Positions 6,025-20,176 of a DNA stretch of 20,176 bases are shown here, piece after piece. The stretch is from positions 1-20,176 of IMG/VR virus record IMGVR_UViG_3300023170_003236; one strand, 5' to 3'. The translations under genes were made by a program, and so were the position numbers. The stretch comes from a virus. The notes below the pieces were generated by a model, which saw only the letters and a program-made list of their open reading frames with translations, searched no databases and was not told the origin of the DNA. The first letter of the stretch is position 1. Each line of letters starts with the position of its first letter.

Positions 6025-6030
6025 ATATAT

Positions 6031-6059: not shown

Positions 6060-6068
6060 TATTTATCG

Positions 6069-6076
6069 TCTAAATA
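6069..6076 (+). promoter_or_regulatory. T4 late-promoter-like element (TCTAAATA)
   Basis: TCTAAATA differs by one base from the T4 late consensus TATAAATA. It is followed by AGTAT and then the ATG at 6082, the same 5-nt spacing seen at 6952, 13897 and 17537. In T4 the start of transcription lies 6 bases after this element, here the A of the ATG, so a leaderless message is predicted. Confidence 0.45.
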
Positions 6077-6081
6077 AGTAT

Positions 6082-6956: not shown

Positions 6957-6959
6957 ATA
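6952..6959 (+). promoter_or_regulatory. T4-type late promoter TATAAATA, leaderless geometry
   Basis: A perfect TATAAATA followed by GTATT and the ATG at 6965. The block TATAAATAGTATTATG is nearly identical to those at 17537-17552 and 13897-13912. The predicted transcription start is the A of the ATG. The only purine-rich run upstream (GGGG near 6945-6948) is too far away to be a ribosome site. Confidence 0.6.
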
Positions 6960-6964
6960 GTATT

Positions 6965-7252
6965 ATGAGTTATACATTTAGAAACGTTTATCAAAAACCA
7001 AACGAAGGTGTTGAAATTAACTTTTGGAACAATGACATATTAGCTTTGATTGATAGTTATTTTGACCAAGGTAAAATAACACAAAAACCTGTTAAAACTG
7101 TTGATGGTTTAGTAGAAACTTGGACAACAGTCTTTGTAGATCAAGCTGCCTATCAGGAATTTATAAATGAACCAGTTAATACACAAAACGGTCAAAATTT
7201 AGAAAACTTTTGTTCTGAAAATTCAGTATCTTATAGTTTAGAGGGTCAATAG
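6965..7252 (+). CDS. Unknown 95-aa phage protein under a late promoter
   Basis: I do not recognise this protein. It is 95 aa, soluble and acidic, with several aromatic residues (FWNND, ETWTTVFVD) and no cysteine motif apart from a single Cys near the end. There is no signal peptide or membrane helix. A perfect late promoter element ends 5 nt before its ATG. It opens the run of genes to the desaturase and FMN reductase, so it is probably made late together with structural proteins. It could be a small virion component or a partner or substrate of a neighbouring modification enzyme; nothing in the sequence decides between these. Confidence 0.7.
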   Translation: MSYTFRNVYQKPNEGVEINFWNNDILALIDSYFDQGKITQKPVKTVDGLVETWTTVFVDQAAYQEFINEPVNTQNGQNLENFCSENSVSYSLEGQ

Positions 7253-7258
7253 AATATA

Positions 7259-7888
7259 ATGGATTGGTTATTTGCTATTTTTATAGGTGTCATTTGGTCC
7301 GAAATAATTTCACACTTAGGTGCTAGTATTTTATTACATAGACATTATTGTCACAATCAGTTTAAAGTTCCTGTATGGTTTGAAGTGTTAGGTCTTTCAA
7401 TGCTGATGATTGCATGTATAAGAACACCCATTGGTTGGATTGCAAGCCATCGTATTCATCACAAACATTCAGATGGTCCAGAAGACCCTCATGCATCTAA
7501 GTATGTAGGTTTTTGGAAAGTATTATTTACAACATGGGATATAAAAAATATACCAAGTAAATATGCTAGAGATTTGTATAAAAATCCTAGACTAGTTTTT
7601 TGCCACAAATACTGGTTACATATTTTAATTTCAGTAAATATAATTAGTTTTTTAATTAGTCCGTACTTTTGGATAGCATTTTGTGTTGTACCATTTGTAT
7701 TTGCTAAAATAGGATTTGGTTTATTAAATACAGTAGGTCATAGAACTCCAGGTGGTGCAAATGTACCATGGTTAAACTTTTTTATTGCAGGTGAAGGATA
7801 TCATAGAAATCACCATGACAATTTTAAAAGAATACGATTACACAAATACGATACAGGTGGTTGGTTAGCAGAGAAGTTATTTAAGTAA
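7259..7888 (+). CDS. Membrane fatty-acid desaturase (compact acyl desaturase)
   Basis: A 209-aa membrane protein with the three histidine boxes of the membrane desaturase/hydroxylase superfamily: HRHYCH (H27-H32), HRIHH (H64, H67, H68) and GEGYHRNHH (H182, H185, H186). These would hold two irons. Hydrophobic helices lie near residues 4-26, 39-57 and 121-158. The GEGYHRNHH form of the third box is typical of delta-9 acyl desaturases of the cyanobacterial/stearoyl-CoA type. The protein is shorter than usual for bacterial members, with a trimmed C-terminus, but all ligand boxes are intact. GAGGG lies 13 nt before the ATG, a long spacing. It could alter host membrane lipids during infection; the electron donor is not encoded nearby unless the FMN reductase next door serves. 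Confidence 0.88.
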   Translation: MDWLFAIFIGVIWSEIISHLGASILLHRHYCHNQFKVPVWFEVLGLSMLMIACIRTPIGWIASHRIHHKHSDGPEDPHASKYVGFWKVLFTTWDIKNIPSKYARDLYKNPRLVFCHKYWLHILISVNIISFLISPYFWIAFCVVPFVFAKIGFGLLNTVGHRTPGGANVPWLNFFIAGEGYHRNHHDNFKRIRLHKYDTGGWLAEKLFK

Positions 7889-7913
7889 TATATATTATAT
7901 TGATTTTTAAATT

Positions 7914-8495
7914 ATGAATACGACAGCAGTATCTTTTAGTTATAGTGAAAGCTCTATGAGTTATAGAGGTCTATTATTAATGGACCACTACATCAAATTT
8001 TCAAACATCATTAAATTGGATTTACCTATTTGCAATTCAAATAGACCAGACGGTATTATTCCTAAAGAGGTAGAAGCTATAGACAATATATTAAGTAAAA
8101 GTGATAAATTAGTTTTTTCTATACCTGAATACACTGGTCATTATTGTGTAGGTTTTAAAAATCTTATGGACTGGTTAGTTGTAAAGGCATATTATAATGC
8201 AGATTTAGGTCAACAGTATTCAATATCAAATAAAGAAATATATGTTATATCATTTACACCTGTTAAAAAAGGTGCTGGCGATAGACATTTTGATATGACA
8301 AAAGAGTTGTTAGAAAAGTTAGGTGGTAACGTAAAAAAAATGTTTGTAAAACATGATTGTTGGGAAAAGTTAGTACCAGATAATTACAAGTTTGTCGAAA
8401 GTGAGAGTAAAGAAATAATTAACAAAAACATGCTAGATCAAGTAAGTGATTGGCAGAAAAAATATAATGAATGGGATAGTAAATGGAAAAAATAA
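7914..8495 (+). CDS. NADPH-dependent FMN reductase-like flavoprotein
   Basis: A 193-aa flavodoxin-fold protein. The signature is PEYTGHYCVGFKNLMDWL (residues 71-88), matching the PEYNGs..G.LKNaiDW flavin-site loop of NADPH-dependent FMN reductases. The N-terminus is less typical than in characterised enzymes, and the usual GS-x-R-x-x-S phosphate loop is only loosely recognisable (SYSESSMSYRG). It probably reduces FMN or a small electrophile using NADPH. It lies between the desaturase (25-nt gap) and a peroxiredoxin (13-nt overlap), forming a small redox group; it could supply reduced flavin or electrons to its neighbours. Confidence 0.75.
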   Translation: MNTTAVSFSYSESSMSYRGLLLMDHYIKFSNIIKLDLPICNSNRPDGIIPKEVEAIDNILSKSDKLVFSIPEYTGHYCVGFKNLMDWLVVKAYYNADLGQQYSISNKEIYVISFTPVKKGAGDRHFDMTKELLEKLGGNVKKMFVKHDCWEKLVPDNYKFVESESKEIINKNMLDQVSDWQKKYNEWDSKWKK

Positions 8496-8914
8496 GTAGT
8501 AAAGGTCTTTACATTTTAAAAGATAAAAAAATTGTACCCTATGAAATAGACGATAAATTAAAAATTATATTATGTGGTATTCCTGGTGCATTTACAAACA
8601 CTTGTACAAATAAACATCTTCCAGGGTTTGCAGAAAAATTAGATAAGTTAAAATTATTTGGTGTAGATAAAGTAATATTTGTAAGTGTTAATGACGCATA
8701 TGTCATGGATGTTTGGAATAAACAACATGGTCATTCTGAAATAGATAGTGTATCTGATCCATTGGCAGTGTTTACAAAACATCTTAAAAAAGATGTTGAT
8801 TGGGGAGACAGTTTTGGTGTAAGAAGTGAACGATATGCTTTGTTAGTTGAAAATGGAAGTATAACAAAAGAATTTGAGGACCCATTTATAGATGGTGTTT
8901 TATATAAACTATGA
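8483..8914 (+). CDS. Prx5-type peroxiredoxin
   Basis: A 143-aa thioredoxin-fold peroxidase. PGAFTNTC (residues 34-41) is the peroxiredoxin PxxxTxxC motif with peroxidatic Cys 41. The following TNKHLPGF and VSVNDAYVMDVW are characteristic of the Prx5 subfamily (hydrogen and alkyl peroxide reduction). The only other cysteine visible is C31, close before the active site, so a typical C-terminal resolving Cys is absent and an external thiol would be needed. The length is close to a complete though slightly short Prx5. The ATG lies inside the flavoprotein gene and the stop overlaps the next start (ATGA). A plausible role is protecting iron oxygenases or the infected cell from peroxide. Confidence 0.9.
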   Translation: MEKISSKGLYILKDKKIVPYEIDDKLKIILCGIPGAFTNTCTNKHLPGFAEKLDKLKLFGVDKVIFVSVNDAYVMDVWNKQHGHSEIDSVSDPLAVFTKHLKKDVDWGDSFGVRSERYALLVENGSITKEFEDPFIDGVLYKL

Positions 8915-9570
8915 TACAAGGTGTAGCTGAATACATAAACGTAGCAACTGATACAGAATTACTTTTGTCTTTGTACAATAAAGTTAAAAGTAATGTTAAC
9001 AATACATTTGGTAAAACACCATTTGTAAGTTATTCACTTGAAGATAATAAAACAGGTAAACCTACGGGATATGAACAAGTATTTAATCCTATATTATCTA
9101 AACATAGAAAAGTACATCCACATTATCAATTTCGTTCAACAGGTTTCAATACAGCTGATAGTACAGAAAAAGATGTATTTGCTCATACAGATATAGATTT
9201 AGATACTGAACACCCTAATGGTTATAACATTGTTATACCTGTGTTTGGTAAATCTCGTATTGATTATTTTGAAACAAAAGATGAAGAAGTTTATTTGCCT
9301 GAAAAAAACGCACATGGTCATGCATACTACCATGAGTTTAAAGCACAAAAAGAAATGGGTCAATACACACCCGAGTTTGAAAAGTTTTTAAGTGATAGAA
9401 AAATAGGTGAAATAGTTTTAGAAAATAGACCAGTGTTAATTAGAACTGATATTATGCATAGAGTAGTTATTACAGAAGCACCTAGATGTGCTTGGGTAAC
9501 AAGATGGAATAACATACCTAAGATATTAGACTATAAAGATTTTAAAGAAATGGTAGAAAATATATTATGA
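8911..9570 (+). CDS. 2OG-Fe(II) oxygenase-like protein
   Basis: A 219-aa protein with a double-stranded beta-helix pattern. HTD (H92, D94) is followed by a hydrophobic strand (YNIVIPVFG) and an acidic aromatic strand. RPVLIRTDIMHRV supplies the distal H183, and an Arg follows at 192 or 198 for the 2-oxoglutarate carboxylate. These are the facial-triad features of 2OG-Fe(II) oxygenases, and the later Arg-Trp pair (RWN) is similar to uncharacterised phage members. It overlaps both neighbours by 4 nt (ATGA), so it belongs to one tightly coupled translation unit with the peroxiredoxin and the TauD-like gene. The substrate is unknown. Confidence 0.7.
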   Translation: MIQGVAEYINVATDTELLLSLYNKVKSNVNNTFGKTPFVSYSLEDNKTGKPTGYEQVFNPILSKHRKVHPHYQFRSTGFNTADSTEKDVFAHTDIDLDTEHPNGYNIVIPVFGKSRIDYFETKDEEVYLPEKNAHGHAYYHEFKAQKEMGQYTPEFEKFLSDRKIGEIVLENRPVLIRTDIMHRVVITEAPRCAWVTRWNNIPKILDYKDFKEMVENIL

Positions 9571-10382
9571 TATACCCTAAAAAAATAGATAAACAAATAA
9601 AAGATATGATTAATGAAGAATTACTTGATGTTGCAAAAAATGTACATCAACAAGGTGTAGCTGTATTCTATAATCAACAATTAAATGAAAAAGAATATAT
9701 TGATACAATGAAAAGATTTGGTGAGTGTGAGGCTCCTAACTTGTTTATGAATCCAAAAGATTATCCAGAAATCTTTTTAGTTACAGGTAAAAAAGTTGAT
9801 GGTAAAAAAATAGGTATGTTTGGAGATACAGAATTAGGTTGGCATTCAAATGGAAATTCTAGGCATTTGATAGACAAAATTTTAATTGCCTTGTATTGTG
9901 TAAAAGAAGATATTAATACAACTTTAAGTGTCTGTAACACTCAACAACCATTTTATGATATGTCAGATGATGAAAAGAATTATTGGAGATCAATTACAAT
10001 AAGATTAAAATTTAAAAACAATACAATATACAATTTAGAGGATGACGATCCCGAATTAGAATTTATGAGTAAAAACAAAGGAAGTATTCGTAAACTAGTT
10101 GATAAACATCCCCATACAGGCTTAGAATATTTTTATTTTCCGTATCATTTTATAACAAAAGCGTGGGAAGGTAAAAAACAAATAGACGCTGAAGAAATGA
10201 TTAATAAATTAAAACCTAAAATATTTAAATCACAATATCAATATCATCACATTTTTAAAGAGGGTGACTTGTTATTAATGGATCAATTTACAAGTTTACA
10301 CCGTAGAACACCTGTGATGGATAACAATAGACTATTATGGAGGATTGCAAGTGACTTTAAACAAATCTATACCTTGGCCTAA
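9567..10382 (+). CDS. TauD/TfdA-like 2OG oxygenase with HxN in place of HxD (paralog 1)
   Basis: A 271-aa protein resembling TauD/TfdA dioxygenases. ELGWHSNGNSRH places H93-S-N95 where the family has WHTD, and LLLMDQFTSLHRR has the distal H245 with LWR (R259) for 2-oxoglutarate. The usual metal-binding Asp is replaced by Asn. The paralog at 13019-13891 shares FMNPKD, GMFG.TEL, WH.NG and the C-terminal block, including the same Asn. An altered carboxylate position is what separates halogenases and other non-hydroxylating members from hydroxylases, so this may not be a simple hydroxylase. ATGA overlap with the upstream gene; the methyltransferase start lies inside its 3' end. Confidence 0.75.
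   Translation: MIYPKKIDKQIKDMINEELLDVAKNVHQQGVAVFYNQQLNEKEYIDTMKRFGECEAPNLFMNPKDYPEIFLVTGKKVDGKKIGMFGDTELGWHSNGNSRHLIDKILIALYCVKEDINTTLSVCNTQQPFYDMSDDEKNYWRSITIRLKFKNNTIYNLEDDDPELEFMSKNKGSIRKLVDKHPHTGLEYFYFPYHFITKAWEGKKQIDAEEMINKLKPKIFKSQYQYHHIFKEGDLLLMDQFTSLHRRTPVMDNNRLLWRIASDFKQIYTLA
10339..10343 (+). promoter_or_regulatory. Strong Shine-Dalgarno (GGAGG) for the GTG start at 10351
   Basis: GGAGG lies 7 nt before a GTG at 10351, the ideal spacing, within the end of the TauD-like gene. It favours GTG 10351 over the TTG at 10345 (too close) and the ATG at 10411 as the methyltransferase start. Few genes in this block have such a strong site. Confidence 0.65.
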
Positions 10383-10959
10383 TATCACAACTAAAACTGG
10401 TGAAATACCTATGAAAAGACAGTATGGTTTAAGAGATATGTCATACTTAGATACTTTAGAAGCAAAACCTATATTTGAAAAACAAGCAGAAATAATTATA
10501 AAAAATAATTATAAAGGTATTGTTGATATTGGTTGCAGACATGGACCTATCAATGATTTTTTACGTGAAAAAAATTATAAAGATTATCGTTACTACGGTT
10601 TTGATACATCGCCAGAGCCTATAGAGTTTGCTCAAAAAAGATGGATTAATGAAAACAACATTGAGTACGAAGTAAGAGATTGGGCAAATCTAAAATCAGT
10701 AGATTACAAAGTAGATTGTATTATTTTTAGTGGTGTTTTGTTATATGAAGAAAATCATTATAAAATGTTTACTGATATAATGAATTACTATCAATGTAAA
10801 AATGCTGTAATACAAGAACCGTATCACACACAAAAATACTATGAAGAAAAATTAAAGTTAAAAACAATTACAAACAATATGCAACAATATAAATTTAAAG
10901 AACAATATATTGTTGAGGCAGAAATATTTTGTGGTCGAAGACTTATTGCTCATGTATGA
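10351..10959 (+). CDS. Class I SAM-dependent methyltransferase
   Basis: A 202-aa protein from the GTG at 10351. VDIGCRHGPINDFL near residues 58-71 is motif I of Rossmann-fold methyltransferases (glycine-rich SAM loop). YYGFDTSPEPIEFA near 82-95 ends strand 2 with the acidic residue that binds the SAM ribose. DCIIFSGVLLYEE is the motif IV strand. No DNA-methylase motif (such as DPPY or PCQ) is present, so a small molecule, protein or lipid is the more likely target. It starts 32 nt inside the TauD-like gene with a strong GGAGG site and ends in an ATGA overlap with the acetyltransferase. It is probably a tailoring enzyme in the same pathway as the flanking oxygenases. Confidence 0.75.
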   Translation: MTLNKSIPWPNITTKTGEIPMKRQYGLRDMSYLDTLEAKPIFEKQAEIIIKNNYKGIVDIGCRHGPINDFLREKNYKDYRYYGFDTSPEPIEFAQKRWINENNIEYEVRDWANLKSVDYKVDCIIFSGVLLYEENHYKMFTDIMNYYQCKNAVIQEPYHTQKYYEEKLKLKTITNNMQQYKFKEQYIVEAEIFCGRRLIAHV

Positions 10960-11561
10960 TAGTAAAAAGATATTCAGAAAATCCTAATAAGTATTGGCCT
11001 TTAATTGAGAGATTTAGATTACAAACTTTTAATGAAGGCAATAATAGTATAACTTATAAAAAATATAATCCTGATAATCCTAATATAGAAACGTGGATGT
11101 GTTTTAAAGATGATAAGTTAATATCAATATCAGCTGCTGAAAGTTCACACTATACAAACGATCCAACTGTAGCAGTGCGAGTTTGTCGTTATCATATCTT
11201 AAAAGAATATAGACATACTCATTGTGGATTAATTATGGCTGAACACCAGATAAAGTGGGCAAGAGAAAAAGGATTTAAGATACTTTACATTACACATGAC
11301 ATTAAAAATAGAGCAATAAATAATCTATATCAAAGAAAAAGAAAGATGACTGATACTGCATTTAAAAAATTTATAAATGGAGAGTGGTACAAAAATTTAA
11401 AATTAGAAACAAAGTTTTTGTTTAAAACAGGTACAATGTTACAGTATGTTTATAGTATTAGATTACAAGGTGACTACAACTGGCAACCTAAATCTAATTT
11501 TATAATAGAAAGAGAACACAATGGAGAAATTATCGAAACACAATCTACCAACAATAGCTAA
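10956..11561 (+). CDS. GNAT-family N-acetyltransferase-like protein
   Basis: A 201-aa protein. The middle section (RVCRYHILKEYRHTHCGLIMAEH), followed by WAREKGFKILYITHDIKNRAINNLYQR, fits the GNAT pattern of a central beta strand, an Arg/Gly pyrophosphate loop with a helix, and a late Asn-x3-x-Tyr segment that contacts CoA. The exact Q/RxxGxG/A loop is imperfect (RHTHCG). I start it at the ATG at 10956, in an ATGA overlap with the methyltransferase stop; an upstream in-frame start would overlap that gene more without a ribosome site. The 3' end overlaps the next gene by 41 nt in another frame. The acceptor amine is unknown. Confidence 0.6.
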   Translation: MIVKRYSENPNKYWPLIERFRLQTFNEGNNSITYKKYNPDNPNIETWMCFKDDKLISISAAESSHYTNDPTVAVRVCRYHILKEYRHTHCGLIMAEHQIKWAREKGFKILYITHDIKNRAINNLYQRKRKMTDTAFKKFINGEWYKNLKLETKFLFKTGTMLQYVYSIRLQGDYNWQPKSNFIIEREHNGEIIETQSTNNS

Positions 11562-12141
11562 TTTAAATTTAAATATTAATTTAGCACAGTTAAGAAAGTC
11601 AACTGATTTAATAGCAGATACGTTTGTTGACGTTAGGTCTGCCAATCCAATGTTATGTATGAACCATGAAGATTTGGTAAAAAGTGTATATGATAATTTT
11701 GAACAAATAAATTTAACAACACCTAGTGAAATTTTATCTCATACAACAAGTATAAAAGAAAGATTAAAAAGAAAAGAAGAACATTTATATAATGTGCCAA
11801 CTGAAATTTATAAAGGTAGTTATTTTGAAAATATTGTATCTCAATGTAAAGCGCCTGCAAGTAGAATAAGAATAACAAAATTAGCGCCTGGTAAAATGAT
11901 ACCTTGGCATGTTGATTATGATGTAAGTTATGGTGTTAGATGTATAGTGCCTATATATGGTGACAATAATGTAATTAATTTATTTAAAAGAAATGATAAG
12001 ATTGAAGCGTATAACCTTGAAGATGGACAAGCATATTTTTTAAATATAGGTTATAAACATGCTGTTGTAAATATGAGTAAAAAACCTAGAATAGCTTTAA
12101 TGTTTACTTTAGACGGTACAGACGACTTACTGAATATATGA
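11521..12141 (+). CDS. 2OG-Fe(II) oxygenase-like (Asp/Asn hydroxylase type) protein
   Basis: A 206-aa protein whose C-terminal half is a double-stranded beta-helix. ASRIRITKLAPGKMIPWHVD gives H130 and D132; R140 starts the next strand; IGYKHAVVN gives the distal H180; and R190 (KPRIALMF) is the 2-oxoglutarate ligand. The order and spacing match Asp/Asn-hydroxylase-like members and resemble the gene at 6507. The first 100 residues are a helical domain without a recognisable family. The start at 11521 lies 41 nt inside the acetyltransferase gene and is preceded by AAGAGAA. The stop overlaps the PLP gene (ATGA). The target is unknown; it lies inside the block bracketed by the two TauD-like paralogs. 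Confidence 0.75.
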   Translation: MEKLSKHNLPTIANLNLNINLAQLRKSTDLIADTFVDVRSANPMLCMNHEDLVKSVYDNFEQINLTTPSEILSHTTSIKERLKRKEEHLYNVPTEIYKGSYFENIVSQCKAPASRIRITKLAPGKMIPWHVDYDVSYGVRCIVPIYGDNNVINLFKRNDKIEAYNLEDGQAYFLNIGYKHAVVNMSKKPRIALMFTLDGTDDLLNI

Positions 12142-13022
12142 AGGAAAAATTAAAAGATAATCGTTGGGTAGACGTACCAACATTTAAAGAAGTAAAAGAT
12201 ATAATAAGTCAACAACTAATTTCAGATACTTATTATAAAAGAGGTAGTGGTCATGCAACAAATGATTTAAATAAGGTAGAAGAATTACATAGAAAATGGG
12301 TAAGTGAAATAATAGATTTATCAGATTTCAATTATTGTTATTTTACAAATGGTACAACAGATGCTATTCATCATTGGGTAATGACAGAAAAAAGAGAGTG
12401 GCAAAAACTTTGTTACGGTGAATATGAATATGCTGACATTATAAGTAGACCTAGTATTGTAACTTGTGATGTGCCGGGTCAATATATGAATGAGGAAACT
12501 GGAAGAGCAGCATTGAAAGGCAAAATAGATAATAATAAACCTCTGTATATATCAATACCCTCAGCTGCTGATGGAAATTATTTTGATCCAGGTAAAATTG
12601 AAGCACCTGTAATTTTAGATTGTACTTATGTAGGTTCAACAAATATTCAAAGAATAAATCTACCAAAAAATACTGAACAAGTTTTTTTTAGTTTTTCTAA
12701 AGGATTTGGTCTTATAGGTCAACGACTTGGATTAGTATATACAAAAGAACCACATTCTACACTTGATAGATTAAAAAGATTTGAGAATTGGAATTATAAT
12801 GGCGTTAAAACTATAGAATTAATAATAAGTAATTTTAAAGTTGATGAAATGTGGAATAAGTATAGAGAAAAACAAGTACAAATTTGTAATGAATATAACT
12901 TTAAACCGTCTGATTGTTTTTATTTAGCAACCACTAGAGATGAGTATTATGCTGAAAGACGTAGAATGAAATGGAATGATACAGCAAGAATTTGTATAAC
13001 ACCATTGTTAGAAAATTTATGA
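12138..13022 (+). CDS. PLP-dependent fold-type I aminotransferase-like enzyme
   Basis: A 294-aa protein with PLP fold-type I features. YFTNGTTDAIHHW (68-80) is the loop that grips the cofactor phosphate, VILDCTYVG contains D161 for the pyridine nitrogen with Y164 nearby, and SFSKGFGLIGQRLG has the Schiff-base K188 and R196. The SKGFGLxGxRxG form resembles class I/II aminotransferases and alpha-oxoamine synthase relatives. It is shorter than the usual 380-400 residues, with reduced N- and C-terminal parts. It is coupled to both neighbours by ATGA overlaps and lies directly before the second TauD-like gene. It likely makes or uses an amino acid or amine that the oxygenases, methyltransferase and acetyltransferase then tailor; that pathway is inference. 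Confidence 0.8.
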   Translation: MKEKLKDNRWVDVPTFKEVKDIISQQLISDTYYKRGSGHATNDLNKVEELHRKWVSEIIDLSDFNYCYFTNGTTDAIHHWVMTEKREWQKLCYGEYEYADIISRPSIVTCDVPGQYMNEETGRAALKGKIDNNKPLYISIPSAADGNYFDPGKIEAPVILDCTYVGSTNIQRINLPKNTEQVFFSFSKGFGLIGQRLGLVYTKEPHSTLDRLKRFENWNYNGVKTIELIISNFKVDEMWNKYREKQVQICNEYNFKPSDCFYLATTRDEYYAERRRMKWNDTARICITPLLENL

Positions 13023-13891
13023 GTAAACAAATAATAAATTATACAGATAAAGAGTTAACAGAATTAGTTTATAAAATTGTTAATGAAGGCTCTGTTGTTT
13101 TACATGAACAAGATTTAACAAGACAGCAACTTGCTCAAGTTTGTGCAAGAATAGGTGAGGTAGAAGAATTGGACTACTTTATGAATCCAAAAGACTCACC
13201 ACAAATAAGTATTGTGTCAGGTGCTGTTATTAATGGCAAACCGATTGGTATGTTTGGTCCAACAGAACTAGAATGGCATGCAAATGGTACTGGAAGATAT
13301 AACTTTAAAGAAATTTGTGTAGGATTATATTGTGTTGAAGAATGTATAGATACTGTTCTTTCAATTGTAAATCAACAATATGCTTTTGAAAATTTATCTG
13401 AAGAAGATAAAAATTATTATAGAAGTATAGATATAAATCTTAATAATGAAGGTGATCGAGCACGAATATGGAGAGATGATGGTGTCTATTCTAAAGCATA
13501 CAAAAATGTTGGTGAACAAAACTTTAGAACAGGACAAAAACATTATAAAGAAGAAATAGATAGACGACCTTTAGTTGCAAAACATCCTGTAAACGGCAAA
13601 GAATATTTGTATCCTATGTTTATCTATCTATATAAAGCATGGTATAGAGATGGTAAAGAAATAGAAGATTTTGATACATTTTATAATAAATTATGGAATG
13701 ATGTAACAAGATCAAAATACATGATACACCATGTGTTTAGAAAGGGTGATTTATTGTTTATGGATCAACTAATTACAAGTCATAGAAGATCAGCCGTAAA
13801 AAATAAAGACAGGCAGTTATGGAGAACAGCATTTGATTATTCAAAATCAATTGAAAATTACAAACCTATAATTTTTGACAAACTTAAATAA
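13019..13891 (+). CDS. TauD/TfdA-like 2OG oxygenase with HxN motif (paralog 2)
   Basis: A 290-aa paralog of the gene at 9567. The start is the ATG at 13019 in an ATGA overlap with the PLP gene. ELEWHANGTGRY has H87-A-N89, again Asn where the family has the metal-binding Asp. LLFMDQLITSHRR gives the distal H255, and LWR gives R269. It has an insertion of about 25 residues relative to the first copy (around 145-185, rich in charged residues). The two copies share FMNPKD, GMFG.TEL and the last 60 residues, so they arose by duplication and both kept the Asn. This argues that it is functional rather than a decay mutation. It is the last gene of block A; the left copy of a promoter/start repeat follows. 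Confidence 0.75.
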   Translation: MSKQIINYTDKELTELVYKIVNEGSVVLHEQDLTRQQLAQVCARIGEVEELDYFMNPKDSPQISIVSGAVINGKPIGMFGPTELEWHANGTGRYNFKEICVGLYCVEECIDTVLSIVNQQYAFENLSEEDKNYYRSIDINLNNEGDRARIWRDDGVYSKAYKNVGEQNFRTGQKHYKEEIDRRPLVAKHPVNGKEYLYPMFIYLYKAWYRDGKEIEDFDTFYNKLWNDVTRSKYMIHHVFRKGDLLFMDQLITSHRRSAVKNKDRQLWRTAFDYSKSIENYKPIIFDKLK

Positions 13892-13895
13892 TGTA

Positions 13896-13972
13896 TTATA
13901 AGTAGTACTATGGCAGCAGTAGCAAATTTAACGATAGATCAAGGTGATTCTTTTAGTTCATCTGTAACAGTA
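13896..13972 (+). repeat. 77-bp direct repeat, left copy
   Basis: Matches 17536-17612 at 74 of 77 positions; the mismatches are in the late promoter, the spacer and codon 13. The copy holds the promoter element and the first 21 codons of the structural gene at 17550, then diverges abruptly. The two copies bracket a 3.6-kb block with a 63-aa protein, a sulfotransferase and four 2OG oxygenases, which suggests insertion or duplication by recombination at this sequence. Confidence 0.9.
13897..13904 (+). promoter_or_regulatory. Late promoter-like element TATAAGTA (repeat copy)
   Basis: TATAAGTA is the left-copy version of the TATAAATA at 17537, one base off consensus, with the same 5-nt spacing to an ATG (13910). 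A TTGACA lies 16 nt upstream (13875-13880), inside the oxygenase coding end, and may be coincidental. The element would drive the leader ORF and the 63-aa gene. Confidence 0.4.
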
Positions 13973-13975
13973 TGA
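13910..13975 (+). pseudogene. Truncated 21-codon copy of the structural gene at 17550 (possible leader peptide)
   Basis: Twenty-one codons beginning MAAVANLTIDQG, identical to the start of the protein at 17550 except Asp for Ala at residue 13. They end in TGA where the repeat stops. The TGA overlaps the ATG of the next gene (ATGA at 13972-13975). It is therefore either a recombination remnant or a translated leader that feeds ribosomes into the 63-aa gene. Asp at residue 13 may be the ancestral state, since GDSF is common at this place in related phage proteins; that is inference. Confidence 0.75.
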
Positions 13976-14163
13976 ATATCAATAGTAAAGAGAAATTAGT
14001 TATAACAGCAAATAATGAATTAAAACGTGTTAAACAAGACTATGAAATAGTAAATGGTCAGTTAGTTTTTAAACAAGCACCTGAACCAAATGCTAAAATA
14101 ACTGTTATAAAAAAAGTAGAAGAAAAGATAAATAAAACTTATATAAATAAGAATATATCATAG
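13972..14163 (+). CDS. Small 63-aa protein, fibre/Ig-domain-like, coupled to the 21-codon leader
   Basis: A 63-aa protein, not recognised by family. Residues 8-46 (LVITANNELKRVKQDYEIVNGQLVFKQAPEPNAKITVI, broken here into its strands LVITANNE, DYEIVNGQLVF and AKITVI) look like a short beta-sandwich repeat common in phage tail and adhesin proteins. A lysine- and asparagine-rich tail follows. Its ATG overlaps the stop of the truncated structural-gene copy, so it may be translated by coupling from that copy's late promoter. It could be a fragment of a longer structural gene left by the same recombination event, or a small decoration protein. Confidence 0.5.
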   Translation: MNINSKEKLVITANNELKRVKQDYEIVNGQLVFKQAPEPNAKITVIKKVEEKINKTYINKNIS

Positions 14164-14181
14164 CATATAAAATGCTTTGTA

Positions 14182-14988
14182 ATGAAACAGATTATGAAAA
14201 TTGATGGTTTGAATAAACAACTTTTCTTTTTAATGGCCTTACCACGTTCTGGTAATACCTTATTTGGTTCTTTAATGAATCAAAATCCCGACATTGGTGT
14301 AACCGCAAACTCTATTACTTTAGAGATAATGAAAGATGTTTTTTTGCTAAAAAAAACTGATGTATTTCAAAACTATCCTGACCATCAATCATTAGACAAT
14401 GTATTAGATAATGTTTATAAAAATTATTATCAAAACTGGCCATACAAATATATTATTGATAGAGGACCTGTATTTACTCCTAGCAATCATTTACTTGTTG
14501 AAAAACATCTAAAACAACCAATTAAATGTATTATTATATGGAGAGATTTATTAGATGTATTTGCGTCTTATATTAAATGGTTTGAAAATGAGCCATCTGC
14601 GTTCCCGAATAAATTTGGTAAAAGAAACATTGAAGAAAAATTATGGATGCTAATGAATACCGAAGGTGCAATTGCAAAAGAATTAATTGCTATACAAAAT
14701 GCGTTACAACCTGAAAATAGGTCAAAATGTCATTTTTTAAAATATAATGATTTGGTAACTAATCCTGAAAATGAAATTAGAAAAATATATTCATTTTTAG
14801 AAATACCCTACTTTAATCACAATTATAAATCCTTAAATCAGTTTAGTGTCAATGGTTTAAGTTATGATGATAATATTGTTGGAAATAAAATGCACACTAT
14901 AAAAACTGAAATTAAAAAGGAAGATAATCCTTATAAATCAATGATACCTGAAAGTATCAGAAAGGCCTATGGTCATATTGTATTATGA
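14182..14988 (+). CDS. PAPS-dependent sulfotransferase-family protein
   Basis: A 268-aa protein with the two PAPS-binding signatures of the sulfotransferase family. FFLMALPRSGNTLFGSLM (P21-T26) is the 5'-phosphosulfate loop, and CIIIWRDLLDVFASYIKW (R121, S129) is the 3'-phosphate site. A C-terminal YNDLVTNPENEIRKIYSFL segment typical of the family follows. It would move sulfate from PAPS to a hydroxyl or amine on a sugar, protein or small molecule. No ribosome site is clear; a small GCAT/ATGC dyad lies upstream. Its stop overlaps the next oxygenase start by 4 nt. It is the first enzyme of the repeat-flanked block. Length is normal for bacterial members. Confidence 0.85.
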   Translation: MKQIMKIDGLNKQLFFLMALPRSGNTLFGSLMNQNPDIGVTANSITLEIMKDVFLLKKTDVFQNYPDHQSLDNVLDNVYKNYYQNWPYKYIIDRGPVFTPSNHLLVEKHLKQPIKCIIIWRDLLDVFASYIKWFENEPSAFPNKFGKRNIEEKLWMLMNTEGAIAKELIAIQNALQPENRSKCHFLKYNDLVTNPENEIRKIYSFLEIPYFNHNYKSLNQFSVNGLSYDDNIVGNKMHTIKTEIKKEDNPYKSMIPESIRKAYGHIVL

Positions 14989-15632
14989 AGTTTGAATGTA
15001 TAAATCTAGGACAATCTATAATGAAATATCAAGTGCCATATGATATTTTTATAACGATAAATGCTATTTACGAAAGTCAGTTTAAAAATCTACCATCAGC
15101 AAATAAAACGTTAGTAGGAAAGATACAAAACGAACACTCTATATACTACAATGGAGCAGATGAAACAAAAGTAAAAAGACACAACTTTTTACCTTACAAT
15201 ATAGTAAAATGGTTTGAAGATATATATAAACACTATTTAAATTATAATAAAATTCGTAAATATAAAACACACTTAAATTCAATATGGATAAATGAAATGA
15301 AACAACACGAATACAATCCTACTCATATACATAGAGGAAGTATATATACAGGCCTTTCAAGCGTTATGATACTTAAATTACCAAATACTTATGGTGTAGA
15401 ATATTCAGCATCCGAAACACCACAAAATGGTCGATTACAAATATTAGGTGCTGCCAATGGTCAATTTGCTAAAATAGATTATCAACCACCAATGGAAATA
15501 AGAGATTTTTATGTGTTTCCGTATGATATGCGACATTGTGTGTATCCGTTTAATGGAACAGACCAAACACGAAGAACACTAGCAGCAAACTGTGACGTAG
15601 ATTTTAATCCTGTAGAAAATCGAGGAGTTTAA
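14985..15632 (+). CDS. 2OG-Fe(II) oxygenase-like protein (HxH type)
   Basis: A 215-aa protein with a beta-helix core. NPTHIHRGS has H114-x-H116, then YTGLSSVMILKLP strands; DFYVFPYDMRHCVYPF gives the distal H184; and R196/R197 (QTRRTLAAN) sits where 2-oxoglutarate is bound. The pattern of H-x-H, FP, then H-x-V-x-P and RxxxAxN matches a group of 2OG oxygenases frequent in T4-like marine phages, related to the 2OG-FeII_Oxy_5 group. Whether the second His replaces the Asp as metal ligand is not clear from sequence. ATGA overlap with the sulfotransferase; a strong GAGGAG at its end serves the next gene. Confidence 0.8.
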   Translation: MKFECINLGQSIMKYQVPYDIFITINAIYESQFKNLPSANKTLVGKIQNEHSIYYNGADETKVKRHNFLPYNIVKWFEDIYKHYLNYNKIRKYKTHLNSIWINEMKQHEYNPTHIHRGSIYTGLSSVMILKLPNTYGVEYSASETPQNGRLQILGAANGQFAKIDYQPPMEIRDFYVFPYDMRHCVYPFNGTDQTRRTLAANCDVDFNPVENRGV

Positions 15633-15634
15633 TA

Positions 15635-16258
15635 ATGAACGATAATAACCGATTTAGATATTACAAACAACCTACAATAATAACTGAACCTCGTTGGAAG
15701 TCTTATATTGTAGAAACCACAAAACCTATTTTTACACCTGAACAATGCCAAGACATTATGAATATGGGTCGTTCAATGCCACCTCAAATAGCACAAGTTG
15801 GTGATGAAAAGGGTGGGGGTGGTGAAGTCAATACAAAAACAAGAACAAGTCATATTTCTTGGATACCTTTTGGTAAATTAGAACCAATGTATCGTAAATT
15901 AGAACAAGTAATGCACCAAACAAATCGAAATCATTTTGGATTTGAAGGAATGCAACTAACGGAACAAGCACAATATACAGAATATCCTGAAGGTGGTTAC
16001 TATCAATGGCACCAAGACAATGATGTCAATTGTCAACACGAACCACCAGTAAGAAAAATATCAATGACTTTATTGTTATCACACGAAAGTGAATTTGATG
16101 GTGGTGAATTAGAGTTGTTAGCACCAGGTAAAAAGGCACCACTAAAACAAGGTCATGCTGTTTTCTTTGCGTCTTTTATAAGTCATAGAGTAGCGCCTGT
16201 AACAAGAGGATTAAGAAAATCTTTAGTGGTATGGTTTGGAGGGACACCGTTTAAGTAA
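15635..16258 (+). CDS. Prolyl-4-hydroxylase-type 2OG-Fe(II) oxygenase
   Basis: A 207-aa protein with a complete P4H/PKHD-type beta-helix. YQWHQDND gives H126 and D128; RKISMTLLLS and the DGGELEL strand follow; HAVFFASFISHRVAPV gives the distal H184; and R194 (10 residues on) binds 2-oxoglutarate. All catalytic residues are present, making it the most canonical oxygenase in the window. Relatives hydroxylate prolines in proteins or free amino acids. GAGGAG at 15622-15627 lies 7 nt before the ATG, a strong ribosome site. It may act on virion proteins, since the structural genes follow closely, but the substrate is not determined. Confidence 0.88.
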   Translation: MNDNNRFRYYKQPTIITEPRWKSYIVETTKPIFTPEQCQDIMNMGRSMPPQIAQVGDEKGGGGEVNTKTRTSHISWIPFGKLEPMYRKLEQVMHQTNRNHFGFEGMQLTEQAQYTEYPEGGYYQWHQDNDVNCQHEPPVRKISMTLLLSHESEFDGGELELLAPGKKAPLKQGHAVFFASFISHRVAPVTRGLRKSLVVWFGGTPFK

Positions 16259-16259
16259 T

Positions 16260-16868
16260 ATGAGTCAATTATTAAAAGAACATTTTTTTCCTACAATTAT
16301 TTATGGTAAAGATTTACAGTTGGATAATGAAACTTTAGCAAGACACGTTATAGAATGGTCAAAATCTGATGAAGGTGTTACAAGAACCAATATGAATGGT
16401 TGGCATTCAACAACCGATATGCAAACAAAACCTGAATATAAACCTTTAGTAGATGAATTATATAAAATGCAATATGAAATCTATAATGAAGAATGGTTAG
16501 ATAGTGAGCCATTTTTAGGAAATATGTGGGCAAATATAAATTACTCTGGTGGATACAATAGACCTCACGTTCACCCTAATTGTTTATTTTCTGGTGTGTA
16601 CTATATTAAAACACAACCAAATTGTGGAGAGTTAGTTGTTAACGATCCAAGACCTGGAATACAAACAATGATGCCAAATCGAAAAAACGGTAGAGATAAA
16701 ATGTTTGAAATGCCTAAAGAATTATGGAGAGAAGCACATTTACAACCAATACAAGGAAGATTAATAATGTTTCCATCTTGGTTATGGCATTGTGTTGAAC
16801 CAAATCGAACTAACGATATAAGAATATCTGTAAGTTTTAATTTTGTACAAAAAGGATTTAATATATGA
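16260..16868 (+). CDS. 2OG-Fe(II) oxygenase, 2OG-FeII_Oxy_5-like
   Basis: A 202-aa protein from the ATG at 16260, directly after the previous stop; an earlier in-frame start would lie inside that gene. RPHVHPNCLFSGVYYI (H103/H105) followed by GELVVNDPRP, LIMFPSWLWHCVEPN (distal H177) and R188 (RISVSFNF) matches the 2OG-FeII_Oxy_5 family common in marine T4-like phages. The HxHP form replaces the usual HxD. The N-terminal region with NMNGWHS is also a hallmark of that group. The stop overlaps the next start by 4 nt. The target is unknown. Confidence 0.85.
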   Translation: MSQLLKEHFFPTIIYGKDLQLDNETLARHVIEWSKSDEGVTRTNMNGWHSTTDMQTKPEYKPLVDELYKMQYEIYNEEWLDSEPFLGNMWANINYSGGYNRPHVHPNCLFSGVYYIKTQPNCGELVVNDPRPGIQTMMPNRKNGRDKMFEMPKELWREAHLQPIQGRLIMFPSWLWHCVEPNRTNDIRISVSFNFVQKGFNI

Positions 16869-17545
16869 ACGAAGAATTTAAACAAAAAAAGTATCAGGTA
16901 ATTAAAAATGCAATTTCATATGAATTAGCAAACTTTATTTTTAATTATCAGTTGTTAAGACGAGATGCTGTTGAGTTTATGTATAAACATAATTTTACAG
17001 CCGACAATGGACATTATGGAACTTGGACGGACCAACAGGTACCAAATGTATATTCAGAATATGGTAATGATGTAATGGAAACTTTAATGATGAAAGTTTT
17101 ACCTGTTATGAAACAACAAACAGGATTAGATTTAGTACCTACTTATGCTTATACAAGAGTTTACGAAAAAGGTGCGATACTTAAAAGACATAAAGATAGG
17201 CCAAGTTGTGAAATATCAACAACACTTAATTTAGGTGGTGATTTATGGCCTATCTATATTGATCCAACAGGTTCAAACAATGTAATAGATGAATTAAAAA
17301 ATATACACAAACCAAACGCACCTGCTGGAAATAGAGTTGATTTAGAACCTGGCGATATGTTAGTTTATAGTGGTTGTGAATTAGAACACTGGAGAGAACC
17401 GTTTGAGGGTAATCTATGTGGACAAGTTTTTTTACATTATAATCACGTAAACGGACCATACGCACAAAGTAATCTATTTGACGGTAGGCCTATGTTAGGA
17501 TTACCCGCATTTACAAAAAAAAACGTAAAAATAACTTATAAATAG
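16865..17545 (+). CDS. 2OG-Fe(II) oxygenase-like protein, last of four in a row
   Basis: A 226-aa protein. YEKGAILKRHKDRPSCEIS gives H109 and D111, LEPGDMLVYSGCELEHW gives the distal H175, and the following strand reads GQVFLHYN. The position where most family members have the 2-oxoglutarate-binding Arg appears to be Gln 187; R177 is the only Arg close after the distal His. Either this protein binds 2OG differently or activity is altered. Otherwise it matches a 2OG oxygenase group common in T4-like marine phages. The N-terminal YELANFIFNYQL helix is typical for the group. Its stop codon (TAG) lies inside the late promoter of the next gene. Confidence 0.8.
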   Translation: MNEEFKQKKYQVIKNAISYELANFIFNYQLLRRDAVEFMYKHNFTADNGHYGTWTDQQVPNVYSEYGNDVMETLMMKVLPVMKQQTGLDLVPTYAYTRVYEKGAILKRHKDRPSCEISTTLNLGGDLWPIYIDPTGSNNVIDELKNIHKPNAPAGNRVDLEPGDMLVYSGCELEHWREPFEGNLCGQVFLHYNHVNGPYAQSNLFDGRPMLGLPAFTKKNVKITYK

Positions 17546-17612
17546 TAATATGGCAGCAGTAGCAAATTTAACGATAGATCAAGGTGCTTCTTTTAGTTCA
17601 TCTGTAACAGTA
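17536..17612 (+). repeat. 77-bp direct repeat, right copy
   Basis: The parental copy, containing the perfect late promoter and the first 21 codons of the intact structural gene. The left copy is at 13896-13972 with three mismatches. Confidence 0.9.
17537..17544 (+). promoter_or_regulatory. T4-type late promoter TATAAATA, leaderless geometry
   Basis: A perfect TATAAATA, overlapping the stop of the last oxygenase, followed by GTAAT and the ATG at 17550. The predicted +1 is the A of the ATG. No Shine-Dalgarno sequence is seen in the preceding 25 bases. Confidence 0.65.
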
Positions 17613-17894
17613 AAAGACGCAAATGGTGATCCATTTGATTTAACTGGTTTTACAGCAGAAGCTAAAATGGCGTTGGGTTATACTTCGACAAGAACAAGAA
17701 CCACGATAACAACAACATTTGATGCTGATAGAACAACAGGCATTATTAATCTATCTTTAACTGCAGCTCAAACTGCGGCTTTAGATGCTCCTGCTCGATA
17801 TGTTTATGATGTAGAAATAACATTGACAGCAGATAGCTCGGTAACAAGAGTCATAGAGGGAATTATAACCGTACGACCTAACGTGACTATATAA
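17550..17894 (+). CDS. Virion structural protein, BppU/Ig-like fold
   Basis: A 114-aa all-beta protein rich in Thr, Ala and Val. It opens with ANLTIDQGASFSSSVTV, then DANGDPFDLTGFTAEAKMA and RYVYDVEIT strands, ending in IEGIITVRPNVTI. This resembles the phage domain with a 'GD-x-F...V...G-x-P-x-DLTG' pattern seen at the N-terminus of baseplate upper proteins and in small neck or tail proteins of T4-like cyanophages. No enzymatic motif is present. It is driven by a perfect late promoter directly before the ATG. Its GC content is visibly higher than that of the oxygenase block. The 77-bp start region is copied at 13896. Structural role likely; exact position in the virion unknown. Confidence 0.65.
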   Translation: MAAVANLTIDQGASFSSSVTVKDANGDPFDLTGFTAEAKMALGYTSTRTRTTITTTFDADRTTGIINLSLTAAQTAALDAPARYVYDVEITLTADSSVTRVIEGIITVRPNVTI

Positions 17895-17897
17895 ACA
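17890..17897 (+). promoter_or_regulatory. Weak late promoter-like element (TATAAACA)
   Basis: One base off TATAAATA, overlapping the stop of the structural gene. It would give a leader of roughly 28 nt containing AAGGA (17918-17922), 8 nt before the ATG at 17931. Such AT-only strings are expected by chance here, so this is tentative. Confidence 0.3.
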
Positions 17898-17905
17898 AAT
17901 GAAAC

Positions 17906-17917
17906 AACATATATGTT
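17906..17917. repeat. 12-bp perfect palindrome in the leader of the 17931 gene
   Basis: AACATATATGTT is its own reverse complement and directly abuts the AAGGA ribosome site. The string ACAACATATAT (17904-17914) recurs at 18244-18254 before the 18309 gene, where part of it forms the RBS-sequestering hairpin. The function is unknown. Confidence 0.35.
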
Positions 17918-17930
17918 AAGGAATAAATAA

Positions 17931-18230
17931 ATGAGTAGTGAAAATATTACAAAACAAGCAGATACTACAGAAAACGAACCTACTATTACAATTAATGGTA
18001 AAGAGTTTAAACAAAGTGAATTATCTCAAGCATGCTTAAATGCAATAGCGATAAGACAAGATTTACAGGCAAATAGAGTTAGATACGTTTTAGAAGTAGA
18101 AAAAATAGACGTTTTAACAAAATATTATAATGAAAAGATTGAAAAAGAGATAGCACCTAAAGATGACAAGTCAAGTACAAACGGTACAACTCAAGTGTCT
18201 GATGTAGCAACTGCATCAAATCCAGCATAA
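17931..18230 (+). CDS. Small DUF6447-like phage protein
   Basis: A 99-aa protein. PTITINGKEFKQSELSQACL followed by a helical segment (QANRVRYVLEVEKIDVLTKYYNEKIEKEI) matches the layout of DUF6447 proteins in T4-like cyanophages: a short beta hairpin, 'G-K-E/Y', then a coiled helix. The low-complexity C-terminus (SSTNGTTQVSDVATASNPA) is probably disordered. AAGGA 8 nt before the ATG is a good ribosome site. It lies between two structural genes and is probably a virion or assembly protein. The family call is moderate. Confidence 0.65.
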   Translation: MSSENITKQADTTENEPTITINGKEFKQSELSQACLNAIAIRQDLQANRVRYVLEVEKIDVLTKYYNEKIEKEIAPKDDKSSTNGTTQVSDVATASNPA

Positions 18231-18247
18231 TATTAAATAAATTACAA

Positions 18248-18311
18248 CATATATCCTCTTAATTTTATAAATATATAAATATAAGTATCTTGTATAAAAA
18301 GAGGGTATATG
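18248..18311 (+). promoter_or_regulatory. RBS-sequestering hairpin with late promoters in the loop
   Basis: CATATATCCTCTT (18248-18260) pairs with AAGAGGGTATATG (18299-18311) over 13 continuous base pairs with a single U-G wobble. The 3' arm contains the whole Shine-Dalgarno (AGAGGG) and the ATG at 18309. The 38-nt loop contains tandem TATAAATA elements. A read-through message would hide the start, whereas a message begun at the loop promoters lacks the 5' arm. This is the layout known for T4 genes e, soc and 49. Confidence 0.7.
18266..18281 (+). promoter_or_regulatory. Tandem T4-type late promoter elements (TATAAATA twice)
   Basis: Two head-to-tail perfect TATAAATA octamers (18266-18273 and 18274-18281). 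Transcription would start about 6 bases after either one (near 18279 or 18287), giving a 20-30 nt leader with GAGGG at 18301-18305 before the ATG at 18309. Unlike 6952 and 17537, this gives a normal leader with a ribosome site. Confidence 0.65.
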
Positions 18312-18542
18312 GCAAATATAACTGCAAAATTAAATGCAACTACAGCTTCAGGACCTAAACAGGTTTCTGTAACTGTTCCTGCAACTACAACAAAATTAAA
18401 CAGATTACAAGATGTAAATGTAACATCATTGTCTGATGGTGCATTATTACAATATGATGATACAACTAAAAAATGGACAAGTAGAAACGATATAATAACC
18501 GATACTGGTGGTGATTTGATATTAAACGGTGGCACATTTTAA
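18309..18542 (+). CDS. Small tail-fibre-like structural protein
   Basis: A 77-aa protein rich in Thr, Asn and Asp. The segment LNRLQDVNVTSLSDGALLQYDDTTKKW is a phage fibre repeat (L-x-D-V-x-V-x-x-x-x-D-G-x-x-L-x-Y-x-x-x-x-x-x-W) widely used in tail-fibre proteins, followed by a DTGGDLILNGGTF strand. It is probably a tail-fibre accessory or the N-terminal piece of a fibre that is a separate gene here. Late expression is predicted from the tandem promoters, with translation gated by the hairpin at 18248-18311. It ends 15 nt before the long tail-fibre gene. Confidence 0.7.
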   Translation: MANITAKLNATTASGPKQVSVTVPATTTKLNRLQDVNVTSLSDGALLQYDDTTKKWTSRNDIITDTGGDLILNGGTF

Positions 18543-18557
18543 CAGGAGAGAGAATAA

Positions 18558-20176
18558 ATGGCAACAATAATCAAAATAAAACGAACTACAGGCGCAACAG
18601 CACCTAGTGGTTTAAATCAAGGAGAGTTGGCCTATGTTTATGACACATCCCAAACCAATAATGGTGTAGGTGGTAATGGTTATAGACTTTTTATAGGTGA
18701 TCCAACTTCAACATCAAATTCAGCAATTGAAATTGGTGGTGAATATTTTACAAATCTTTTAGACCACGCACACGGAATAGTAACAGCTAATTCAGGTGTT
18801 ATTGTAGACTCTAGTAAAAAAGTTGATGAGTGGAATGTAGATAATTTAACACTAAACGGAAACATTATTGGTTCTACAACAGGTGATATAGTTTTAAGTT
18901 CATTTGGAGACATTGACGCAAATTCAAACACAATTAAAAATGTTGTTGATCCTGTAAATGCTCAAGATGCTGCTACAAAGGCATATGTTGATACACAACT
19001 AACGGGTTCATCATTAGAATTTGTTGGTGATACTGGTGGTACACTTTCTATAGATTTAGATAGTGAAACATTATCTATACTTGGTGGAACTGGTATTGAA
19101 ACTTCTGGTGCTACAAATGATTTAACAGTAACTCTTTCCGATACAGCTGTAACTCCAGGTTCTTATGGTTCAACCACAGCAATTCCAACATTCACAGTTG
19201 ATCAACAAGGTCGATTAACAGCCGCAAGCACAGTAAACGTTGCCACAACTCTCTCTACTGCTGCTGAAACTGGTACTGGATCAGTTGATCTTCTTTCAGA
19301 CACTCTTTCAATTTTAGCAGGAGAAGGTATCAACACAGTTGCTAGTGGAACAAATATTACTATCTCTGGAGAGGATGCTTCTGATACTAACAAAGGTATT
19401 GCTTCTTTTTCAGCTGCTGACTTTGATGTTACATCAGGCGATGTTTCATTAGAAGATACAGTTGTTAAAACTGTTACAACAGATAGTGGTGCAATGACAC
19501 CAGCTTCACACTCGTTCTCAGTATTGGGTGGAGAAGGAATGGATGTCACTCATACAGGATCAACAATTACTATTACAGGAGAAGATGCTACTTCATCTAA
19601 CAAAGGTGTTGCATCTTTTGACTCTACTGACTTTACTGTTACATCAGGTGCTGTTGCTGTAAATGCAATTACACTTGGTTCTTCATCTTTAAATCCAGGT
19701 GCAACAACAACTGATATTGCAGGATTAACATCTTTAGTTGTTGACAACGTTAATGTAGATGGTTCAACCATTACATCAACATCTGGTGATTTAACTTTAA
19801 CTGCTACAAGTGGCGATATTGATGTTAACTCAAATAAAATTGTAAATGTTGCAACACCTGTAAATGATACAGATGCTGCTAACAAAGCATACGTTGATGC
19901 TGCTAGAACAGGATTAGATGTAAAAGGATCTGTTAAAGTTGCTACAACAGCAAACATTACACTTTCAGGAACACAAACAATTGATGGAGTTGCCCTATCA
20001 GTTGGTGATAGAGTTCTTGTTAAGAATCAAACAACTGCAAGTGAAAATGGAATCTATGTTGTTGCTTCAGGTGGATGGTCAAGAGCTACTGATGCTGATG
20101 AAAATGCTGAAGTTACTTCAGGAATGTTTACATTTGTTGAACAAGGTTCAGTTAACTCTGATACAGGTTTTGTACT
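18558..20176 (+). CDS. Tail-fibre protein with repeats (3' end beyond window)
   Basis: The frame is open for 539 codons from the ATG at 18558 to the window end. AGGAG at 18544-18548 gives a strong ribosome site. The N-terminus (IIKIKRTTGATAPSGLNQGELAYVYD, in pieces: IKIKRTTG, APSGLNQGELAYVYD, YRLFIGDP) resembles the Mtd_N-like attachment domain that joins fibres to the baseplate. Beyond residue 90 it is built of beta repeats: two DI-D-x-NSN...KAYVD units, two GED-x-x-x-x-NKG-x-ASF units and three SIL/SVLGGxG strands. KVATTANITLSG...GDRVLVKNQTTASENGIYVV is a common module of marine phage fibres. It is the host-recognition or fibre-shaft protein. Long open frames on the opposite strand are shadows of its biased composition. 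Confidence 0.88.
   Translation, partial: MATIIKIKRTTGATAPSGLNQGELAYVYDTSQTNNGVGGNGYRLFIGDPTSTSNSAIEIGGEYFTNLLDHAHGIVTANSGVIVDSSKKVDEWNVDNLTLNGNIIGSTTGDIVLSSFGDIDANSNTIKNVVDPVNAQDAATKAYVDTQLTGSSLEFVGDTGGTLSIDLDSETLSILGGTGIETSGATNDLTVTLSDTAVTPGSYGSTTAIPTFTVDQQGRLTAASTVNVATTLSTAAETGTGSVDLLSDTLSILAGEGINTVASGTNITISGEDASDTNKGIASFSAADFDVTSGDVSLEDTVVKTVTTDSGAMTPASHSFSVLGGEGMDVTHTGSTITITGEDATSSNKGVASFDSTDFTVTSGAVAVNAITLGSSSLNPGATTTDIAGLTSLVVDNVNVDGSTITSTSGDLTLTATSGDIDVNSNKIVNVATPVNDTDAANKAYVDAARTGLDVKGSVKVATTANITLSGTQTIDGVALSVGDRVLVKNQTTASENGIYVVASGGWSRATDADENAEVTSGMFTFVEQGSVNSDTGFV
18909..18992 (+). repeat. 28-residue KAYVD fibre repeat, copy 1
   Basis: Encodes DIDANSN followed by IKNV.DPVN and AATKAYVD. 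Copy 2 lies at 19815-19898 (84 nt each). Such units are typical of trimeric fibre shafts. Confidence 0.75.
19368..19448 (+). repeat. 27-residue GED..NKG fibre repeat, copy 1
   Basis: Encodes GEDASDTNKGIASF and then a TSG turn. A diverged second copy is at 19578-19658, 210 nt downstream, each preceded by an 'L-GG/AGEG' strand. Confidence 0.7.
19578..19658 (+). repeat. 27-residue GED..NKG fibre repeat, copy 2
   Basis: Encodes GEDATSSNKGVASF followed by TDFTVTSG. It pairs with 19368-19448; the copies differ at many third positions, so the duplication is old. Confidence 0.7.
19815..19898 (+). repeat. 28-residue KAYVD fibre repeat, copy 2
   Basis: Encodes DIDVNSN followed by IVNVATPVN and AANKAYVD. 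It pairs with 18909-18992. Confidence 0.75.

Follow-up and report, generated by a model that had tools for sequence, protein, structure and literature searches.

A putative T4 gene e-type RNA switch, dependent on the site of transcription initiation, in front of a tail-fibre-module gene of a marine T4-like phage

Late promoters located inside the loop of an RNA hairpin are predicted to govern a small gene in IMG/VR virus record IMGVR_UViG_3300023170_003236 (positions 1 to 20,176; this whole stretch of 20,176 nucleotides (nt) is called the window). The element at 18248-18311 covers the ribosome-binding site (RBS) and start codon of a gene for a 77-amino-acid (aa) tail-fibre-module protein, and it is very probably a cis-acting RNA switch whose state depends on where transcription begins, of the kind known from gene e of phage T4. 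Its anatomy, its predicted energetics and the selection for pairing in relatives can be read from sequence. Similarity identifies the phage as marine, T4-like and related to phages infecting SAR11 bacteria: the nearest named DNA is that of Pelagibacter phage Mosig (68% identity across the LtfC-like gene), in which the gene order resembles that of the window, the LtfC-like and fibre genes coming after a run of enzymes that includes 2OG-Fe(II) oxygenases. The parts of the hairpin and the gene behind it are as follows.

18248-18260, + strand: 5' arm (anti-RBS arm), sequence CATATATCCTCTT, beginning 17 nt past the upstream gene's stop codon
18264-18269/18293-18298, + strand: inner helix of the minimum free energy (MFE) structure, stacked on the main stem and enclosing the region of both promoter boxes
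18266-18273, + strand: first late-promoter box TATAAATA, in the loop, with a start expected near 18279 from T4 spacing
18274-18281, + strand: second late-promoter box TATAAATA, in the loop, with a start expected near 18287 from T4 spacing
18299-18311, + strand: 3' arm, sequence AAGAGGGTATATG, consisting of the Shine-Dalgarno (SD) sequence AGAGGG (18300-18305) and ATG (18309-18311)
18309-18542, + strand: putatively controlled gene, 77-aa tail-fibre-module protein, phrog_13853-like, homologue of Mosig_00069

The two arms form 13 continuous base pairs (bp) with a single U-G pair (18254-18305) around a 38-nt loop, in agreement with the original prediction, so that, in the longer predicted transcript, the SD and AUG of the 18309 gene lie hidden within a helix. 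The tandem TATAAATA boxes described in that prediction are also present, adjoining head to tail in the loop, which holds the inner helix as well. Read-through RNA arriving from upstream would contain both arms, and its 13-bp stem would hold the SD and AUG and prevent translation of the 77-aa protein, whereas late RNA begun at either loop box by the phage-modified RNA polymerase would lack the 5' arm, leave the start open and allow the protein to be made. This scheme supposes that the boxes fire late, that upstream transcripts get as far as the hairpin and that the stem blocks ribosomes; a ribosome ending at the upstream stop codon would probably halt short of the stem, because the 5' arm begins 17 nt downstream. 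The purpose of the arrangement is likely to be the confinement of 77-aa protein synthesis to the gene's own late transcripts.

Folding of 18200-18330 gives an MFE of -29.1 kcal/mol compared with -14.6 ± 2.7 kcal/mol for shuffled sequences (z -5.3; 0/200 shuffles as low), and the cost of opening the start, which is 14-17.6 kcal/mol with the 5' arm, drops to 4.2-5.5 kcal/mol once that arm is removed, as the original prediction had expected. The mean pair probability of the stem is 0.97 for every 5' end tried from 17550 to 18248. A switch measure was defined as the cost of unpairing positions -14 to +4 around a start in the read-through RNA minus the same cost in the late RNA, the latter beginning 6 nt after the late box. 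By this measure the 18309 start costs 16.4 kcal/mol to open in the read-through RNA and 4.0 kcal/mol in RNA from the second promoter, a switch value of 12.4 kcal/mol, which was matched by 0/200 sequences when the upstream part of L006, a relative with a leader identical to that of the window, was shuffled. Among the gene starts of the window, 18309 is the sole outlier in opening cost (16.6 kcal/mol, with 16 others at 0.8-6.4 kcal/mol).

T4 itself served as a positive control. Applied blind to all 21 T4 candidates led by TATAAATA, the switch measure ranks gene e first, followed by gene 26 and I-TevII, and the start of gene e has a computed opening cost of 15.1 kcal/mol in the long RNA and 2.3 kcal/mol in the short one. 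Reviews list e, soc, 49, I-TevI/II/III, segB, 25, 26 and mobE as leaders with a sequestered RBS (PMC3014915, PMC2988022), and the precedents e, soc and 49 to which the original prediction appealed are all among them. The resemblance to gene e, in which read-through RNA hides the RBS and late RNA is without the 5' arm (PMC3014915), lies in the mechanism and the computed costs (15.1 to 2.3 kcal/mol there and 16.4 to 4.0 kcal/mol here), with no claim of sequence homology; unlike the predicted switch before a fibre-module gene of a marine phage, that of gene e is experimentally proven and belongs to a lysis (lysozyme) gene of an enterobacterial phage. Similarly, T4 I-TevI, I-TevII, I-TevIII and segB and Aeh1 mobE combine a helix over the RBS with a promoter, middle or late, whose transcript omits the 5' arm (PMC2988022), but these are homing endonuclease genes, intronic or free-standing, and not genes of a virion module. 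T4 soc, 49, 25 and 26 are likewise late genes with an RBS sequestered on long transcripts (PMC3014915, PMC2988022), differing in the genes and hosts concerned, with soc and 49 compared through reviews. In T4 (NC_000866 116428-116479), genes 26 and 51 diverge from a common intergenic region, and each of the two starts scores as a late-promoter hairpin (11.3 and 9.3 kcal/mol).

Relatives collected from IMG/VR scans comprised 199 loci, 117 of them non-redundant, and a late box lies upstream of the homologue of the 18309 gene in 117/117 of the non-redundant loci. With a strong switch taken as a switch value of at least 8 kcal/mol, the 17 loci in which a small INGKEYK-type gene stands just upstream, as in the window, have a median value of 13.0 kcal/mol (16/17 strong), and the 100 loci with the LtfC-like gene upstream have a median of 4.3 kcal/mol (13/100 strong). 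In the protein tree all 17 are set apart by a branch supported at 100/98 and therefore represent one lineage rather than 17 independent cases. The idea that insertion of the upstream small gene drives the hairpin was rejected, as the association (Mann-Whitney p about 1e-9) amounts to about one event when all 17 loci form one clade.

Within this lineage the arms are of four types (A, B, C and D) with differing start regions, and 5' arms bind the start regions of their own type at a mean of -16.1 kcal/mol, a figure that includes the weaker Mosig and L043 pairs, against -8.4 kcal/mol for other types; type A arms also fit type B start regions. Standard pairs fill 167/169 cells in the 13 sequences of types A and B, and U-A has given way to C-G, on both sides, at pairs 5 and 13, pair 13 being less secure because the type B register, with one or two bulged C, was set by hand. 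One of the two exceptions is an N. The two-sided changes and the matching of arms to their own type point to selection for pairing, within one clade. Compensatory change, proposed as a check on the original prediction, is accordingly present at two pairs, with one mismatch (in L023) on the other side of the account. The proposed logic, with the 5' arm placed before the late promoters and the 3' arm formed by the RBS and AUG, draws support from the energetics, the shuffles, the T4 control, conservation and these compensatory changes.

The leader of Mosig_00069 (start codon at 54090, minus strand) resembles that of the window in preceding a homologous gene and in having its SD covered by a hairpin that contains a late box, with a switch value of 11.7 kcal/mol (p 0.01-0.02) that is the best of 18 Mosig late-box candidates; it differs in its arms, which are weaker and G-U-rich and begin about 5 nt past the upstream stop codon. 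Close relatives of Mosig have switch values from about 0.4 to 11.7 kcal/mol, and the Mosig-type hairpin is for that reason only moderately supported. None of syn9, P-SSM2 and HTVC008M, when scanned, contained a switch of at least 8 kcal/mol: the P-SSM2 homologue has a CATAAATA box and no hairpin, and HTVC008M gp062 has neither late box nor hairpin. Melnitz_185 lacks a late box, and at Melnitz_184 (LtfC-like) a plausible three-part stem around a late box takes in the start codon with a non-significant score; this start-codon stem is listed with locus L050:1250-1309. The suggestion that T4-style control extends to this group of phages thus holds for one lineage, while in the Mosig clade the strength of the hairpin is low or varies, and a large sister clade is without it.

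Several points weigh against a working switch. The case is built from sequence and predicted energetics, and the support given by the strong-hairpin homologues, which form one clade, is partly shared ancestry. Inside that clade L140 scores only 3.1 kcal/mol despite 8 complementary pairs kept, and the mismatch in L023 is an uncompensated C-A. The hairpin is absent from large sister clades and is therefore dispensable there. In addition, the 20-kb window, a genome fragment, contains no gp55, gp33 or gp45; proteins like all three are annotated in the syntenic relative Mosig.

The number of TATAAATA sites in the window is at the chance level (6 found, 6.8 expected), and a positional test was made by counting TATAAATA 20-45 nt before SD-led starts in comparison with 55 anagrams. 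The counts were 13 in Mosig (mean of 1.5 for anagrams), 12 in Melnitz (1.0), 20 in T4 (1.8) and, more weakly, 4 in HTVC008M (1.0), which shows a positional enrichment of T4-type late boxes in pelagimyophages. A genome survey of pelagimyophages had described middle and late promoter prediction as unsuccessful (PMC7029224); for Melnitz, 15 late promoters are given in the paper on that phage (PMC9004378), and NATAAATA has been reported from cyanophages (PMC2984593). Comparable late-box starts rarely have a strong switch: a late box precedes the IDGK gene, the first of the module in sister phages, in 98/104 cases, with a strong switch in 5/98 of these, and 8/137 other late-box starts in the fetched contigs reach 8 kcal/mol. 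The hairpin is consequently not a by-product of AT-rich late promoters. Chance pairing of a purine-rich RBS with a pyrimidine-rich stretch is encouraged by the AT-rich sequence and by the frequency of weak pairing of a similar sort in the Mosig clade, but it is very improbable in view of the shuffles (0/200), the position of 18309 as the only outlier among window starts, the survival of pairing through two-sided changes and four arm types, and the rarity of such hairpins at comparable late-box starts of the same phages.

The neighbouring features that bear on the reach and timing of the putative switch are these.

17537-17544, + strand: further TATAAATA, before the LtfC-like gene 17550, a possible origin of late read-through RNA
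17931-18230, + strand: 99-aa INGKE(F/Y)K-family gene just upstream, found at this place only in the strong-hairpin clade
18558-20176, + strand: tail-fibre-like gene running past the window end, with its own RBS open (opening cost 2.8 kcal/mol)

The original prediction took the controlled gene for a fibre gene, which proved incorrect: it encodes the 77-aa fibre-module protein, and the fibre gene is that at 18558, the unsequestered RBS of which means that direct control by the hairpin would be limited to the 77-aa protein. This protein belongs to phrog_13853, a small family without known function, and is homologous to Mosig_00069, Melnitz_185 and the N-terminus of HTVC008M gp062. HTVC008M (NC_020484, 46673 onwards) has the 77-aa family joined N-terminally to a much longer protein with the annotation 'baseplate wedge initiator', a fusion that suggests a fibre-module adaptor role for the small protein; the AlphaFold model of the 77-aa protein (predicted local distance difference test score, pLDDT, 51) is too poor for use.

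The genes upstream of 18309 are co-directional with it, and a scan of the + strand from 6000 to 18320 found no terminator-like site. Together with the box at 17537 and the late box that the upstream small gene carries in clade types B and D, this makes late read-through likely. Early silence followed by late timing is what we infer for the switch, and since a TATAAATA stands upstream at 17537 with no terminator-like site between, the hairpin could equally serve as insulation against late read-through. A hairpin that works as proposed but insulates among late transcripts, fixing dose rather than silencing the gene early, is a reasonable alternative at somewhat less than an even chance; the same upstream features speak for it, but for the T4 precedents the literature describes a block on early and middle read-through (PMC3014915, PMC2988022), and the upstream enzyme genes may be early. 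The stable stem just past a stop codon might instead be a transcription terminator or RNase processing site of the upstream operon, but no U tract follows the stem, whose 3' arm ends in the ATG, and the + strand scan was negative. Such a role, which would account neither for the constant use of the RBS and start as the 3' arm nor for the retention of promoters in the loop, is extremely unlikely. Just as improbable is a ligand- or temperature-sensing leader: stems that sequester an RBS are typical of riboswitches and RNA thermometers, and Mosig and Melnitz are reported to carry glutamine riboswitches (PMC9004378), but Rfam gave 0 matches in the window, loop conservation is limited to the surroundings of the promoter boxes, and sea temperatures would be unlikely to melt a stem whose opening costs about 16 kcal/mol. 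Three readings, terminator, Rfam riboswitch and chance, were each tested and rejected, by the terminator scan, by Rfam and by the shuffles and late-box controls, respectively.

Other observations concern the surroundings of the switch. The sequence TATAAATA followed by 5 nt and ATG occurs at 6952-6967 and 17537-17552 (TATAAATAGTATTATG, TATAAATAGTAATATG), where T4 spacing would give a leaderless transcript from the A of ATG, unless the boxes serve another purpose. A 12-bp palindrome, AACATATATGTT (about 17904-17922), directly precedes the SD of the 17931 gene; it is kept in most type A and B relatives and has ACAACATATAT in common with the hairpin 5' arm. The INGK/IDGK small gene follows the LtfC-like gene in the window's clade and precedes it in Mosig (Mosig_00070/00071) and other relatives, and the swapped order (17550-18230) coincides with the strong hairpin.

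Late-promoter hairpins were also found before other genes. In L291, L272, L248 and L250 the IDGK gene has its own strong late-promoter hairpin (10.7-16.1 kcal/mol), and most relatives are without it. In L083, the gene at 17609 (+ strand) starting MATPSSREQL, neck-protein-like by its position in relatives, has TATAAATA in a long hairpin over the start (8.0 kcal/mol). Before Melnitz gene 154 (gp5 OB domain; MZ577097 76300-76363), a late box lies within a 10-bp stem followed by T6, which may be a switch or a terminator. It is conceivable, if rather doubtful, that late-promoter hairpins are evolutionarily mobile in marine T4-like phages, arising anew with unrelated arms before different genes and imposing translation from a gene's own promoter only rather than timing; the genes cited for this are the 18309 gene, the IDGK gene in L291, L272 and L248, and the neck-like gene in L083.

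The principle of the switch is already known, and what appears to be new is a control of the T4 gene e kind in a clade of ocean viruses, with the sequence changing and the pairing preserved; the literature searched, outside which most subscription journals lay, contains no account of such a switch in marine T4-like phages, the Mosig leader included. The switch would bring a control familiar from T4 textbooks to relatives of phages that infect SAR11, the most abundant bacteria of the ocean. Its homologues supply a comparative set in which arms changed and pairing persisted, and the homologous leader in the cultured phage Mosig makes the prediction testable there.
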